Of a stretch of 38,952 bases of DNA, positions 6,850 through 29,586 are shown piece by piece. The stretch lies in assembly GCA_030751095.1 (NCBI GenBank), contig JASMGX010000008.1:1-38952 (forward strand), written 5' to 3'. Both the position numbers and the translations under genes were made by a program. The stretch's first letter is position 1, and every line of letters begins with the position of its first letter. Source of the stretch: Pirellulales bacterium (lineage in GTDB: Bacteria; Planctomycetota; Planctomycetia; Pirellulales; UBA7805). The notes beneath the pieces are model-generated. The model did no database searches. It was not told the DNA's origin and saw only the letters and a list, made by a program, of their open reading frames with translations.

Positions 6850-7059
6850 CCGCCCCTTCCAGTGCTCGGGCCAAATGTTTTGTGAAAAATCATCTTCTGT
6901 TATAGTCGCTCTTTTGCCTCACGGCATCTGGCCAATCTGAGAAAAGAGGGTGTGCCTCCAAGGTCGCTTTAAGAAATGTTAGTTGAGAGCCCGAAATTGG
7001 CGTTCTCTTTAGGCTGTGCGATCTCGCAGGTCTCGAGAGCATCACGTACAATTTCGAGC

Positions 7060-8790
7060 ATGTACAAATGCTTCCTTCGCTTCGCCAAATGCAGTCTTTT
7101 TGTCCTTGGGCACTTCGCCCAACTCTCTGCATCGGCTGATGGGACCAGCGACCTCGGTGCCGTCGCCACTGTCCACCCGACCGCCACTCGTGCCGGGCTC
7201 AAGGCCCTCTCAGAGGGAGGCAACGCCATCGATGCGGCAGTTGCAGCAGCACTCACACTTGGAGTGGTCGATTGTCACAACTCCGGGATTGGTGGAGGCT
7301 GTTTTATCCTGCTGCACCTACCGGACGGCAAACTCATCGCAATCGATGGCCGTGAAACCGCACCGGAGCATGCGAGCGACGATCGCTATTTCCGTGACGG
7401 CAAACTGCAACCGGAACGAAGTCGTATCGGCCCACTTGCGGTCGGCACCCCCGGCGCTCTTGCCGCCTATGCCTATGCCGTAGAAAAGTTTGGTCGTATG
7501 TCACTCGGCAAACTGCTGCTCCCGGCAGCGGAGATTGCCGAGAAGGGATTTGCGATCGATCCCACCTTTGCGGTGCGGCTCGCTGCGGAGACGCGGGCAC
7601 TTGCTCGTTTTGAAGGCTCCCGCAATCTTCTATTACAGGCAGACGGCAGACCCTATCGGCAAGGAGATCTGTTGCGAATGCCCGATCTGGCCCGGACCTA
7701 TCGATCCATTGCCGGTGAGGGAACGGACTGGTTTTATCGCGGACCGTTTGCCAGACAGGTTGGAACCTGGATGCAGCAGCATGGTGGTGTTCTCTCGGCC
7801 GAAGACTTTGGCAGCTACCGCGTGCAGCGGCGGCAACCGATTATAAGCAGCTATCGGGACCGCACCATTGTCGGTTTTCCGCCGCCGAGCAGTGGTGGAG
7901 TGCATGTGGCAGAAATCCTCAATATTCTTGAACATTTTGACCTCAAAGATGCCACCGATGCGCAAGTTGTTCATTTGACGACCGAAGCGATGAAACTTGC
8001 TTTTGCCGACCGAGCTTACTGGCTCGGAGACCCTGCGTTTACAAATATTCCCCGCGGCCTGATCGACAAAAAGTATGCCCGCGAGCTAGCGCGGGGGAAA
8101 ATCGATCCTGTTCAGGCCAGCCCGGTCAAACAACACGGCTTGCCCCCCAACGCCACGGAAAACGTGTTCGGAAAGCATACCACCCACATCGCAGCAGCCG
8201 ATACGAAAGGCTATTGGGTTGCGATCACAACAACGGTCAATACGCCATTCGGGTCCAAAGTCATCGTTCCCGGGACCGGTGTGGTACTCAACAATCAAAT
8301 GGATGATTTTTCTATTGCCCCGGGCGTTCCGAATGCTTTCGGGCTCATCGGTGCCAAAGCCAACCGCCTACAAGCGGGCAAACGCCCCCTTTCGAGTATG
8401 AGCCCTACAATCATGCTCGTTGGTGAAAAACCACAACTCACCCTAGGTGCAGCGGGAGGGCCTCGCATCATCAGCCAGGTGGTGCTCACGATCATACGCA
8501 TGGTCGATCGGAGCATGCCGCTTGCGGAAGCCGTTGCCGCTCCGCGCTTCCATCATCAATGGCGACCGGACCAACTTTTTATTGAAACGACTGGCGACAA
8601 TTTTACCTTTCCCGAACCACTGATTGAGAATTTACGCAAACGCGGCCACATCGTGACGGCCATGCCGTATGCGGGTGTCACAGAGTGCGTCGGCTACTCA
8701 GTGGCTGGCAAGTTGATTGCCGTGACAGACCCTCGCCTGCCAAAGGTAGCGTCTTCTGGCAAAGAGTCTGCGGAAAGAAACAACCGCTAA
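7060..8790 (+). CDS. ggt: Gamma-glutamyltransferase (ORF opens at 6976; ATG at 7060 gives a better signal peptide)
   Basis: 'GGNAIDAAVAAALTLGVVDCHNSGIGGGCF', catalytic 'TTHIAAADTKGYWVAITTTVN', 'PLSSMSPTIML...LTLGAAGGPRI'. Confidence 0.92.
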   Translation: MYKCFLRFAKCSLFVLGHFAQLSASADGTSDLGAVATVHPTATRAGLKALSEGGNAIDAAVAAALTLGVVDCHNSGIGGGCFILLHLPDGKLIAIDGRETAPEHASDDRYFRDGKLQPERSRIGPLAVGTPGALAAYAYAVEKFGRMSLGKLLLPAAEIAEKGFAIDPTFAVRLAAETRALARFEGSRNLLLQADGRPYRQGDLLRMPDLARTYRSIAGEGTDWFYRGPFARQVGTWMQQHGGVLSAEDFGSYRVQRRQPIISSYRDRTIVGFPPPSSGGVHVAEILNILEHFDLKDATDAQVVHLTTEAMKLAFADRAYWLGDPAFTNIPRGLIDKKYARELARGKIDPVQASPVKQHGLPPNATENVFGKHTTHIAAADTKGYWVAITTTVNTPFGSKVIVPGTGVVLNNQMDDFSIAPGVPNAFGLIGAKANRLQAGKRPLSSMSPTIMLVGEKPQLTLGAAGGPRIISQVVLTIIRMVDRSMPLAEAVAAPRFHHQWRPDQLFIETTGDNFTFPEPLIENLRKRGHIVTAMPYAGVTECVGYSVAGKLIAVTDPRLPKVASSGKESAERNNR

Positions 8791-20546: not shown

Positions 20547-22268
20547 TCAGCGTAGATGTTCCATCGGCACGTTCTTGCCGACAAAACCGACCACGATCGG
20601 CCCCCAGATGGTCAGAAAGATGTTGGCCAAAGCGTAGGTGATCGTAAAGGTAGCAACCGGTGTCGAGTTGCCCGCCTTCTCAAGCAGGGCGGCAAAACCT
20701 GGATTGGCGCTCCGCCCACCGACTACGCAAGCCAATGCCACAATAGGACTGCGGATCCGGAGGATGTAATACGAGAAGAAAAAGACGACGATCTGCGGAA
20801 TCAGGGTGACCGACGCGCCAAGCAGCAAAAGAGTCATCCCATTTTCCTTGATGCTCGTGAACGCCTGTGGGGCCGCTGTAATACCCACGAGAGCGACAAA
20901 GACAGCCAAGCCAAAATCCCGTAGAAAATTTGATGCCCCACTCGGCAAGGCAGCAAACCGCGGATGGACACTCCGCAACCAACCGAAGAAGAGGCCAGAC
21001 AGGAGGCAGCCGACACCGCTACCGATGGTTACCGGGACACCAACGAGTTTGAATTCGATCATCCCGATCAGAAATCCGAGCGTCATCCCGACACCGAAGA
21101 ACACAAAATCGGTCACAGCCGCCGCCGAGACGGAGGGACCGATATGCCTCGCAACACGACCGACATCCTCGGGGCGACCGACGAGGGACAAAGCATCACC
21201 CTTGTGGAACTTAAGTTCGGGCGAACAGGGCATTGCCTGCCCCCAACGCTTTACACCTGTCACAAAAACTCCGTGCCGCGTTTCGATTGGGAGCAATTCG
21301 CTCAACTCGGCCATGGTCCGCTCTGCAAACTCACCGCTGTTCATGATCAACTCGCGGTTTTCCTCAACCACCTGCATACCGGGAGGAGCCTCCACCTCAG
21401 GACCGAAGTGAGCAGGCGACTGTTTGAGGGTCGGGATCTCTCCGATCACCGCAACGATGTCTCCATCCTGCAAAATTTCCTCCTCAGTAAAATCAATCGC
21501 TTTGCCGCTCCGCACAATGGCGACAACGGCTGCAGTGGAGAGCTCTTTGTCGATCTCGAGGACAGTTCGGCCAGTCGCTTGCCTCGCCGAATCGACCTGA
21601 AAGAACCGCGTCGAGACGCGCTGCACACCATTGAACTGGCCCGATTCGAGTTCCGCATTGCCGCCCGCTCTCTCTTTGGCAAGCGCAAGTGCCTCTTTGC
21701 GGACATCCCAACGCATGATCATCGGCAGCAACCAACTGACGACTATAATCGGCCCCAGGGATCCGAAGATGTAACAGACGGCGTAGCCGACAGCGACGTT
21801 CGTTTGCATGGTTTTGATCGCGGCCGGCGAAACGTCGAGCCTGGCAATCGCTGCATCGGCAGTCCCGATAATGGCGGACTGGGTCAGGCCGCCTGCCGCC
21901 AGTCCCGCTGCGGTACCACGATCAAGATCGAACCACCAGGCCGCACCGAGTACACACATCAGCCCGACGAAGGTCATCAGGAAGGCGGAGGTCAATTGAT
22001 TGAGGGACTGCAAATTGAGAGAACGGATGAACTGGGGGCCACCCTGATAACCGACGGCATAGATAAACAGCGCAAAGGCGATTGTCTCGATACTGGCATC
22101 AACGGGAATATCGAACTGACCGATCAGAACACCTACCAGGAGTGTTCCGGCAATCCCGCCCAACACAAACTTCCCAATCCGGAGTTTCCCAACCAGATAC
22201 CCGAGTGCCAACGACGTGAACAACCCGGCCAACGGTTCGGCCTGAAAGAAATTGCGAATCCACTCCAT
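20547..22268 (-). CDS. aspT: AspT/YbjL-type (AAE family) putative aspartate:alanine antiporter with two TrkA-C domains
   Basis: 573 aa; duplicated membrane halves flanking two TrkA-C-like regions ('GDIVAVIG', '[13 protein letters not shown]'); '[17 protein letters not shown]', '[46 protein letters not shown]'; directly downstream of aspD. Confidence 0.8.
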
Positions 22269-22287
22269 ACAGAATCTCCGACTCGTT

Positions 22288-23874
22288 TCAGGACGTTGCG
22301 TCCCATCGTTCGTGGTATTCCTTCAGCAAATCACCAATACCCTTTCCGATGGCGGTATATTCCTGGTCGGGAAGATTTGCCAACGAGACCCTCACAGACA
22401 TTTTCGGCGCATCGAATCCACCACCATCCATCAACACGATAGACTTCTCCTCGGCCAACCGCCACACAAAATCGATCGGCTCGTGATTTTCCAGGAGCCA
22501 TTTTGCGAAATCCTCGCCATACCGTTCGGTGGCAAGATGGGGTACATCAATCGTGGTGTAATAGTGCGCATCAAAGGGCGTTTCAGGACTCGGAACACCC
22601 AAAGCCGCGTAGAGCGCATGAAATCGCTCGATCACAATATCCTGAGCCCGCTCCTTGTAGACCCCTTCACGATCTGCCAGGCAGGCAAGGGAGAGCAACA
22701 CCATAAAAACCTGCTGGGGCGTCGATAGTCCCGCGGTATGGTGGAGCGCCACGGTACGGCTGTCGGCCACCATCCGATCGATAAGCTTGGCCGCATTGGG
22801 ATCGAGAAACACAGTGTGATAGCGTTCCCGGAGATTGTCCTGTTCCTGCCTCGGGAGTGCGGCAATCGCCGCATCGAGGATGTTGTCCTTAGCGAGTCCG
22901 ATGACACCGAGCCGCCAGCCGGTCGCGCCGAAGTATTTGGAATAGGAATAGACGAGGATCGTATTGCGCGGCACTATGGACGCTAAAGACTGAAATCCAT
23001 TGACGAAAGTGCCGTAGACATCATCGGTGAGTACGATAAGGTCGCTGCGGCGGGTAGCGATCAACTCGTGGAGGGCTTGGAGCGTTTCCGGGTGCATGGC
23101 CACCGAAGTCGGATTGGAAGGATTCACCACAAAAAACGCTTTGATGGCAGGGTCGGCGAGTTTCTCGATCTGCTGCGGAGAATACTGCCAGCCGCTGTCT
23201 GGCTCCTGCATCACCTCGAGTTCGACAAACTCAAAGTCGTTCAGAAGCGGAATCTCCAGATAGGGAGAGAAGATCGGGGCACCCAACGCGATCTTGTCGC
23301 CTTTGTGCAAAAGCTTATTCTCGATGAGGGTGTTGAAGACATAGGTCATCGCTGCCGTTCCCCCCTCGGTAGCGAAGAGGTCGAACTCGTCGGTCGAACG
23401 CTTCCCACCACACATCTCCTGAGCGAGGTAGCTGCTCACAATCTGTTCGCTGCAGCGGAGCATCCGGTCGGGTACCGGATAGTGATCACCGAGGATTCCA
23501 TCGATCATCTCAAGCAGGAAAATAGCCGGGTCCATGCCCATCTCATCGCGCACCATCGCAAGACTGGTGTTGAGCAGCGAGATTCCCGGCTCACGGGCGC
23601 GCTTGACGAGAAAGTCTTCAAACCGCTCGACGATCCCGTCGCTCTCCGGGACACTTCCGATACCGGGGCGAATCAGATGTCGCTCCGACTCCGCTACCGC
23701 AAAGTGCCCCAGTTCGAAAAAAGCGTAACGCGGTTCCAGCGCGACCCAGTTCGGGTTGCCGCGTCCGGCATTAAGCATCTTTTTTTCGCTGCCGGAAGAG
23801 GCCATGGCGATGAGCTTGTTCTTGATTTCAAATGGGCTCAGGCCTTCGTAGAGTTTTTCTTCCTGACGGGTCAC
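22288..23874 (-). CDS. aspD: Bifunctional aspartate aminotransferase/L-aspartate beta(4)-decarboxylase
   Basis: 528 aa; 'FEIKNKLIAMA', 'LNAGRGNPNW', 'FVVNPSNPTS', PLP-Lys region 'YSYSKYFGATGWRLGVI'; GTG start. Confidence 0.88.
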   Translation of the reverse strand: MTRQEEKLYEGLSPFEIKNKLIAMASSGSEKKMLNAGRGNPNWVALEPRYAFFELGHFAVAESERHLIRPGIGSVPESDGIVERFEDFLVKRAREPGISLLNTSLAMVRDEMGMDPAIFLLEMIDGILGDHYPVPDRMLRCSEQIVSSYLAQEMCGGKRSTDEFDLFATEGGTAAMTYVFNTLIENKLLHKGDKIALGAPIFSPYLEIPLLNDFEFVELEVMQEPDSGWQYSPQQIEKLADPAIKAFFVVNPSNPTSVAMHPETLQALHELIATRRSDLIVLTDDVYGTFVNGFQSLASIVPRNTILVYSYSKYFGATGWRLGVIGLAKDNILDAAIAALPRQEQDNLRERYHTVFLDPNAAKLIDRMVADSRTVALHHTAGLSTPQQVFMVLLSLACLADREGVYKERAQDIVIERFHALYAALGVPSPETPFDAHYYTTIDVPHLATERYGEDFAKWLLENHEPIDFVWRLAEEKSIVLMDGGGFDAPKMSVRVSLANLPDQEYTAIGKGIGDLLKEYHERWDATS

Positions 23875-23916
23875 GTCCTATTCTCCCGGGCTAGGTTTCA
23901 CAGAGGGCAATGCCTG

Positions 23917-25038
23917 TCAATAGTTAAAGATTTCTTGCAACTTCTTGGTATCGTTACCGTACTTGGCGAGTGCCACCATCAGAAGAATTCTAGCCTTGGG
24001 GCCACCAAGATCTTCAGGCCGAGAGAGAATACAGCCATGTTTAAGGAGATCTGCTCCGCCGCCCACATCGCCATAACTCGGCTCGACCGCACCCTCCCAA
24101 ACAATGCTCGTAATGACCACCGGGATCTGCTTCGAGAGGGCGTAGAGGACTGCCTCGAAGGTCTTCGCATTGACATTGCCCGCACCTAGGGAATCGATGA
24201 CAATTCCTTTCGCGCCGCGATCAACGGCATAACGCACAAATCGGCCGTCATCTCCAGCATACGTCGTCAAAAAGGAGACTGAGGGCAGAGGTTCGGTGAG
24301 CGGAATTTTGCGGCGTTTCAAACAGTCGTTAAAGCGAGTCACCTCTCCATTAAAGACATAGCCGAGATACCCTTTCTCGCCCGATTCAAAAGTCTGAACA
24401 TTGGTGGTCTGCGTTTTGCGGACGTACTGGGCAGCATTGACATATTGATTGAGGGTCACCGTGACACCCCAGTTGGTGGCATTCTTCGATATCACCTGGG
24501 TCACAGCGTCTAGAATATTCCCAGGACCGTCAGGTGCAGGAGAGGAAGCGTCTCGCATCGCGCCCGTAAAGACAACTGGCTTGTTGCTCTTGAGAGTCAA
24601 ATCGAGGAAAAAGGACCCTTCGGCCATCGTATCGGTACCGTGGGTGACGACAACACCGGTCACCTCAGGCTTGGCGAGGACGCGATCCACAGTGCGACTC
24701 AGCTTGGCCCAGTTCTCCGGTGCCATATGGGAACTGTCAATGTTTGAGAAATTCACAACGCCAATGTTGGCAAATTTTGAAAGTTCCGGAACGGCCGCCA
24801 CTAAATCGGTGCCCGAGAGAGCGGGGACCGAACCGCCTGTCTTCGCAGAACGCTTCTCGGCGATGGTTCCGCCAGTCGCGACAACAACGACCAACGGTAA
24901 TTTGGGATCGTGGATCGCGAGTTGGATCTGCGGTTCCTTGGACGTCCCTTTTTCCGAGAGCGGCACCGACGGGGGGGCCGCAAAGAGAGAGCATGCGATG
25001 AGGAGACCAACAGGGACGAGAGATACTATTTTTCGCAT
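23917..25038 (-). CDS. ansB: Type II L-asparaginase with signal peptide
   Basis: 'VVVVATGGTIAEKRSAKTGG', 'GVVVTHGTDTMAEGSFFLDLTL'; start at 25038 (MRKIVSLVPVGLLIACSLFAAPP) has AGGGAGG SD 5-6 nt upstream; ORF opens at 25053. Confidence 0.93.
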   Translation of the reverse strand: MRKIVSLVPVGLLIACSLFAAPPSVPLSEKGTSKEPQIQLAIHDPKLPLVVVVATGGTIAEKRSAKTGGSVPALSGTDLVAAVPELSKFANIGVVNFSNIDSSHMAPENWAKLSRTVDRVLAKPEVTGVVVTHGTDTMAEGSFFLDLTLKSNKPVVFTGAMRDASSPAPDGPGNILDAVTQVISKNATNWGVTVTLNQYVNAAQYVRKTQTTNVQTFESGEKGYLGYVFNGEVTRFNDCLKRRKIPLTEPLPSVSFLTTYAGDDGRFVRYAVDRGAKGIVIDSLGAGNVNAKTFEAVLYALSKQIPVVITSIVWEGAVEPSYGDVGGGADLLKHGCILSRPEDLGGPKARILLMVALAKYGNDTKKLQEIFNY

Positions 25039-25332
25039 CAAAACCTCCCTCATAGGCGTTTGTTCTGCCGAGCAGACGAATGTACCGGGTCAGCAACAGA
25101 GTCCGCAGAAATGGAGATATCTTTTCTGGATACTATTATCCAATTTGTTCTCCCCAAGGTAAAGGGGGCTATTAAATTCGGCGCGTGGATGGACACTGTT
25201 TGCTGCACTGTGGCAAGGGTTTGAATACATTGGCGCCGCCTCGACAACCCTAAAACAGCCCCCTATGCTCATTCTGCTGGGCCTCTGATGGCCTTTTAAA
25301 ATTACCTTTCTGCTATCGGTGGACTCAAAAGA

Positions 25333-28245: not shown

Positions 28246-28413
28246 CTCGCAACCCTCTCCAGCAGAGCAGACTCCTTAGTTCCCGAAAAACTGGCGATGG
28301 CATCGCTTCGCGCACAGAGTCGGGTCCCCCCTGGGGCCAGGATAGCGGGCTATGGTACAACCTCCTTTCTGCGACTGACTGCGATCCATCATCCCGTTGC
28401 AAAATGCTGCATC

Positions 28414-29586
28414 ATGAATCCATCCCGGCCAAACATCGATATTGAGAAAACCGTTCACAAGCGATATTCCACCGCCGCGCTCGAGACTCAAACGGCACTT
28501 TGCTGCCCAGTGGAATACGATGACCAATACCTCGAAATATTACCTAAGGAATTGATCGATCGAGATTACGGCTGTGGAGATCCTTCCAAGTACGTTCGTC
28601 CGGGAGAAACGGTCCTCGATCTTGGCAGCGGGGGCGGAAAAATCTGTTACATCGCCTCACAGATTGTCGGGCCCGAGGGGCGCGTTGTTGGTGTTGACCA
28701 AAATGATGAGATGCTCTCCCTAGCCCGACGTTTCCAAAATGAAGTCGGTGAGCGAATCGGTTGGCACAACACTGAATTTTACAAAGGACATATTCAAGAT
28801 CTGGCACTCGACCTTGAACGCTTTGAAGCCTATCTGGCAGACAACCCCGTTCTCAACAGTAGTGACTGGGCCCGTGCGGAAAGCTGGGCACACGAGCAGC
28901 GTCAAGCCAATGCCATGATTGGCAATCATTCCATCGATGTTGTTGTGTCCAACTGCGTCTTGAACCTCGTTCGTCCCGAAAGTCGTCGACAACTCTTTAC
29001 AGAACTCTTTCGCGTCCTCAAATGTGGCGGTCGCGCCGTGATCAGCGACATCGTGAGTGATGAACCGGTTCCAGATCACCTGCAAAATGACCCGAATCTC
29101 TGGAGCGGTTGCATTAGTGGTGCCTTCATCGAACACGACTTTCTTCGGGCCTTTGAAGACGCCGGATTTTGTGGTTTGGAAATCGTAGGCCGACAGGCAG
29201 AGGCCTGGGCAAAGATTGAAGGCATTGAATTCCGCAGCATGACGGTGCAGGCATTTAAAATCGACGAGGGACCTTGCCTCGACTTGCACCAGGCCGTTAT
29301 TTACAACGGGCCCTGGAAAAGTGTGAGCAACGATGATGGTTGCACTTTACGACGGGGTGAGCGAACAAGCGTCTGTGGGAAGACCTTTGACGCCTACAGC
29401 CAAAATCCCTATCGGGAACAACTCACGCTCGTACCGCCCATCCATTCGGTTTCCGAAGAGGAGGCCGAGGTGTTTGACTGCCAGGATCATCAACTCCGCG
29501 ATCCACGCGTCACTAAGGGCAATGCGTCATCGCTAAATATCTTGCCCGAGGATGGCTGCTGCAGCACCGATGGCGATTGCTGCTAG
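28414..29586 (+). CDS. SAM-dependent methyltransferase, arsenite methyltransferase (ArsM)-like, with Cys-rich C-terminus
   Basis: 'VLDLGSGGGKICYIASQIVGPEGRVVGVDQNDEML', 'VVSNCVLNLV', 'CISGAF', N-terminal 'CCPVEYD' and 'DYGCGDP', C-terminal 'DGCCSTDGDCC'. Confidence 0.82.
   Translation: MNPSRPNIDIEKTVHKRYSTAALETQTALCCPVEYDDQYLEILPKELIDRDYGCGDPSKYVRPGETVLDLGSGGGKICYIASQIVGPEGRVVGVDQNDEMLSLARRFQNEVGERIGWHNTEFYKGHIQDLALDLERFEAYLADNPVLNSSDWARAESWAHEQRQANAMIGNHSIDVVVSNCVLNLVRPESRRQLFTELFRVLKCGGRAVISDIVSDEPVPDHLQNDPNLWSGCISGAFIEHDFLRAFEDAGFCGLEIVGRQAEAWAKIEGIEFRSMTVQAFKIDEGPCLDLHQAVIYNGPWKSVSNDDGCTLRRGERTSVCGKTFDAYSQNPYREQLTLVPPIHSVSEEEAEVFDCQDHQLRDPRVTKGNASSLNILPEDGCCSTDGDCC

Follow-up and report, generated by a model that had tools for sequence, protein, structure and literature searches.

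The window analysed here, a 38,952-nucleotide stretch of DNA from a Pirellulales bacterium, carries three co-directional genes in the order ansB-aspD-aspT (Table 1). The open frames leave intergenic gaps of 42 nt (ansB/aspD) and 19 nt (aspD/aspT), in agreement with the first-pass annotation, which had described three minus-strand genes with gaps of about these lengths. A purine-rich ribosome site precedes each of the three: AGGGAGG lies just ahead of the ansB ATG at 25038, as the same annotation had noted in calling it a strong Shine-Dalgarno sequence, while aspD is preceded by GGGAGAATAGGAC and aspT by CGGAG. The sigma-70-like match upstream of ansB is a pattern only and does not constitute promoter evidence. 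A terminator scan of the cluster gave a count no higher than that in shuffled sequences, and a search for a compositional sign of transfer found a cluster GC of 0.54-0.56, similar to that of the flanks. Elsewhere in the window, the frame at 6976-8790 (plus strand) reads, from its translation, as an exported gamma-glutamyltransferase. An ArsM-like arsenite methyltransferase is encoded at 28297-29586 (plus strand); it scores 342 bits on the arsinothricin-type model, whose cut-off is 500.

Table 1. Features of the ansB-aspD-aspT locus (positions within the window)
Feature	Position	Strand	Description or basis
ansB-like	23917-25038	minus	predicted exported asparaginase-family amidohydrolase, 373 aa
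aspD	22288-23874	minus	GTG start; PLP-dependent aspartate 4-decarboxylase by family, 528 aa
aspT	20547-22268	minus	aspartate-alanine antiporter by family, 573 aa; two Asp-Al_Ex halves and TrkA_C domains
Shine-Dalgarno AGGGAGG and spacer, 5' of ansB	25039..25051	minus	sequence
Weak sigma-70-like match, 9/12, upstream of ansB	25135..25163	minus	pattern scan

By family, the product of the second gene is AspD, an aspartate 4-decarboxylase. It scores 702.8 bits on the equivalog model for this enzyme (TIGR03801, cut-off 435.1), matches the solved aspartate 4-decarboxylase 2zy2 at 565 bits and, in alignment with the solved enzyme 3fdd, retains the PLP lysine (K313, equivalent to K315) together with two arginines (R38 and R495, equivalent to R37 and R497). 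It carries no signal peptide and is therefore predicted to be cytoplasmic.

The third product, the single AspT of the window genome, reaches 672.9 bits on the Asp-Ala antiporter equivalog model (TIGR03802, cut-off 546.95) and matches the solved AspT 9veb at 225 bits. A grouping with the non-aspartate YidE/YbjL paralogs, which the first-pass annotation had considered fatal to its reading, is ruled out by both scores and phylogeny: the protein stays far below the cut-offs of the YbjL-type (260 against 645) and YidE-type (161 against 449) models, and in the tree it falls inside clades of AspD-adjacent AspTs (SH-aLRT 99-100), with E. coli YidE and YbjL placed elsewhere. Residue R76, in TM3 of the Tetragenococcus halophilus AspT, has been reported as involved in transport. 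The equivalent position is Q in the window protein, and among AspD-linked AspTs R, K, Q, E, D, G, N, S and T all occur there; we dropped it as a diagnostic residue, since it is too variable. Given this substitution and variability, the 1:1 electrogenic stoichiometry should not simply be transferred from T. halophilus.

The product of the first gene, which is the sole PF00710 gene of the window genome, scores well above the cut-offs of PF00710 (198 bits against 22.5) and PF17763 (94 bits against 34.6). Its predicted structure (mean pLDDT 79) was matched by Foldseek to solved L-asparaginases (E ~1e-27, TMt mostly 0.84-0.90). Judged by eye, its N-terminus, MRKIVSLVPVGLLIACSLFAAPPS, is a signal sequence and its leader, MRKIVSLVPVGLLIACSLFAA, an export signal; within it LIAC fits a lipobox, suggesting that the enzyme could be a lipoprotein and not a free protein. 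The window protein thus resembles E. coli AnsB in its export signal, its fold and, by alignment, its equivalents of all four catalytic residues T12, T89, D90 and K162. It differs from that enzyme in scoring below the cut-off of the type II model (TIGR00520, 260.3 bits against 314.3), in having G, S and G in place of the substrate contacts Tyr25, Gln59 and Glu283, with the lid alignment uncertain, and in belonging to a well-supported clade that has GTIAEK as its lid motif and also carries YGDxGGG. The type I model is not reached either (TIGR00519, 175.6 bits against 260.5). L-asparaginase activity is likely, and because the protein lies outside both models and lacks the three contacts, L-asparagine is named here as its putative substrate. 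The initial call of an exported asparaginase has the fold, catalytic residues and export signal in its favour; the curated type II score and the three substrate contacts are cautions that it did not have.

Two characterised or proposed systems resemble parts of this locus. In T. halophilus, exchange of external aspartate for internal alanine, coupled to internal decarboxylation, generates a proton-motive force (PMC9508256, which cites a J. Biol. Chem. 1996 paper for the proton-motive cycle of the asp operon). The T. halophilus operon, like the window, encodes AspD and AspT together, and the two share family assignments and expected reactions; aspD and aspT of the window are adjacent, co-directional and 19 nt apart. 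The window differs in adding an exported asparaginase, such that the outside substrate would be asparagine, and in having Q in place of R76 of TM3. For Actinobacillus succinogenes, a comparable logic has been proposed for ansB-aspA-dcuA, in which an exported asparaginase is combined with aspartase and DcuA (PMC10634366). There too an exported asparaginase, a cytoplasmic aspartate-consuming enzyme and an aspartate exchanger are encoded side by side. Aspartase and DcuA are, however, absent from the window cluster: AspD replaces the former, AspT replaces the latter (an aspartate/C4-dicarboxylate exchanger), and the expected products are alanine and CO2 rather than fumarate/succinate and ammonium. 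The component parts are already known, the asparaginase being an addition to the AspD-AspT cycle; no prior description of the ansB-aspD-aspT trio was found in the open-licence papers searched.

The trio is rare within the order. The draft of the window genome comprises 3.7 Mb at 82% completeness. Across the order, AspD turns up in 3 of 397 genomes, AnsB and AspT in 5 of 347 each. All three AspD-carrying genomes also hold AnsB and AspT, a joint presence with a hypergeometric probability of 1.4e-6 (1e-4 when the window genome is left out), the value being approximate given the slightly different sample sizes (397 and 347). Matches to the three proteins are absent from the five sampled congeners of the window genome, three of which are only 62-70% complete. 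An exported asparaginase is clustered with AspD in all three carriers, in three different arrangements, so that either the trio or the ansB-aspD pair recurs in two further genomes of the order, here G123 and G755. In G123 the gene order differs from that of the window: aspD, an opposite-strand DcaP-like porin gene, ansB and aspT lie within 6.2 kb, and the trio proteins are 62-64% identical to those of the window; the interposed porin gene implies that co-transcription is not universal. In G755, aspD is followed directly by ansB (L158:7517-10419), with AspT homologues on other contigs only. The AspD of this pair scores 533 bits on the curated model with all checked active-site residues intact, bears a twin-arginine (Tat-type) leader, RRRSFLRIAG, and adjoins an exported canonical type II asparaginase (416 bits against a cut-off of 314). 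These features suggest that the G755 pair converts asparagine to alanine outside the cytoplasm. No second pair of this kind turned up among 117 relatives of G755.

A genome scan beyond the order covered 80 of at least 470 AspD loci. AspT adjoins AspD in most of the 80. A co-directional asparaginase adjoins AspD or AspT in 11 and is not found next door in the other 69. Chance would give about 0.3 such neighbours, on the rough assumption that a genome has 3000 genes, two of them for asparaginases. These 11 loci span at least four named phyla and several gene orders: aspD-aspT-ansB in four Omnitrophota and one Desulfarculaceae; the window order, ansB-aspD-aspT, in one further bacterium; aspT-aspT-aspD-ansB in Bradyrhizobium and in a deltaproteobacterium filed under Myxococcota; aspT-aspD-ansB in Gluconobacter; and aspD-ansB, with AspT not nearby, in two myxobacteria (L082 and L098). 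AspT is adjacent in nine of them. The signal peptide that the first-pass annotation had reported for the window asparaginase is present, by eye, on all 11 linked asparaginases as well. These come from two separate clades, and one of the enzymes (L067) is canonical type II (395 bits against 314). On the AspD tree the linkage label has to change nine times or more. The genome search for this adjacency that had been proposed as a check has therefore found the genes conserved together, in G123, in G755 (as the ansB-aspD pair) and in these 11 loci.

Several further observations concern the AspD neighbourhoods. Three genomes with aspD-aspT, G527, G529 and G535, carry a window-clade asparaginase gene at a separate locus; in the first, an Omnitrophota genome with aspD-aspT on another contig, the asparaginase gene directly follows one for an APC-type amino-acid permease (L148:6943-9461). 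Two tandem AspT genes precede aspD in L060, L067, L090, L099, L108 and L109, and the paired copies belong to different clades, apart from the L108 pair, which are sisters. Outer-membrane porin genes of different families lie near AspD-AspT clusters (OprB at L040:2312-3643 and L033:12933-14384, OprD at L108:10931-12382 and a DcaP-like porin at L154:8454-9980), and perhaps serve substrate entry. A Synechococcales cyanobacterium has AspD in a 901 aa frame that continues into an S51/cyanophycinase-like domain at the C-terminus (L058:7974-10676), a fusion with a possible cyanophycin-to-alanine function.

We consider it probable that the three window genes form a module in which asparagine feeds the decarboxylation and exchange of aspartate. 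Outside the inner membrane, the exported and perhaps lipid-anchored asparaginase would convert asparagine to aspartate and ammonium; AspT would bring aspartate in and alanine out; and AspD, in the cytoplasm, would decarboxylate aspartate to alanine and CO2, thereby consuming a proton and renewing the counter-substrate. If, as in T. halophilus, the exchange pairs Asp(1-) with Ala(0), the proton-motive force would gain about one charge-equivalent per turn, with ammonium left as a by-product or nitrogen source. At the level of sequence, the analysis establishes the identities of AspD and AspT, the asparaginase's fold and export signal, and the adjacency with its recurrence. Substrates, direction, stoichiometry and energy gain are what we infer for the module. 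The asparagine-powered proton-motive scheme originally advanced for this locus is partly supported, through gene identities, export signal and linkage, with the type II asparaginase score, the missing substrate contacts and the Q at the R76 position as cautions.

The same genes could instead scavenge nitrogen and carbon with no meaningful energy gain: external deamidation would supply ammonium, aspartate would be taken up, and the alanine made by AspD would be oxidised by alanine dehydrogenase. The window genome does encode an alanine dehydrogenase at curated level (491 bits against a cut-off of 392), by which part of the alanine may be assimilated rather than exported, and it has no aspartase above cut-off. 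The asparaginase-AspD pairs without an adjacent AspT in G755, L082 and L098 fit such a role, indicating that the pair can serve something beyond an exchange cycle. Nevertheless, AspT is an exchanger in its characterised member and adjoins its partners in the window, in G123 and at nine of the 11 linked loci, and we regard scavenging as unlikely. A similarly low probability attaches to pH homeostasis, in which AspD would take up cytoplasmic protons while deamidation outside frees ammonia, the module mainly resisting acid. Decarboxylase-antiporter pairs with the same chemistry are known from acid resistance, glutamate decarboxylase and its antiporter being an example, and the Tat-signal AspD of G755 with its exported asparaginase would be able to buffer the periplasm, though not to build a proton-motive force. 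Acid-stress genes, however, were not recognised beside the trio within the window, and this explanation overlaps with the energy-yielding cycle in that both need identical reactions.

That the exported enzyme is an amidohydrolase for some other beta-amide or for peptide-linked asparagine, its aspartate product still feeding AspT, is quite improbable. The altered lid tyrosine and substrate contacts and the subfamily scores below cut-off point in this direction, as does the cyanobacterial fusion, in which AspD has joined another aspartate-releasing hydrolase. Yet the fold and catalytic residues are of the asparaginase type, and canonical type II asparaginases fill the equivalent place in G755 and L067. 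It is extremely unlikely that the trio are chance neighbours without functional relation. All three genes are missing from close relatives of the window genome, as could follow from a recent random insertion, but recurrence in different orders and phyla, the repeated changes on the AspD tree and the hypergeometric value led us to reject chance adjacency.

More tentatively, and with a little less than even confidence, the asparagine-fed module may be taken to mean that asparagine is itself a bioenergetic substrate, exported asparaginases of two clades having been recruited repeatedly in unrelated bacteria to supply the AspD-AspT proton-motive cycle, including small-genome Omnitrophota, with the window clade representing a specialised, distinct subfamily. 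Since asparaginases are used as drugs, an exported clade whose lid differs is of biochemical interest. If the proposal is true, the textbook energy cycle of decarboxylation and exchange would be extended from free aspartate to asparagine, the occurrence of an exported asparaginase next to AspD and AspT across unrelated phyla would be explained, and uncultured groups such as the Omnitrophota would gain a testable energy metabolism.
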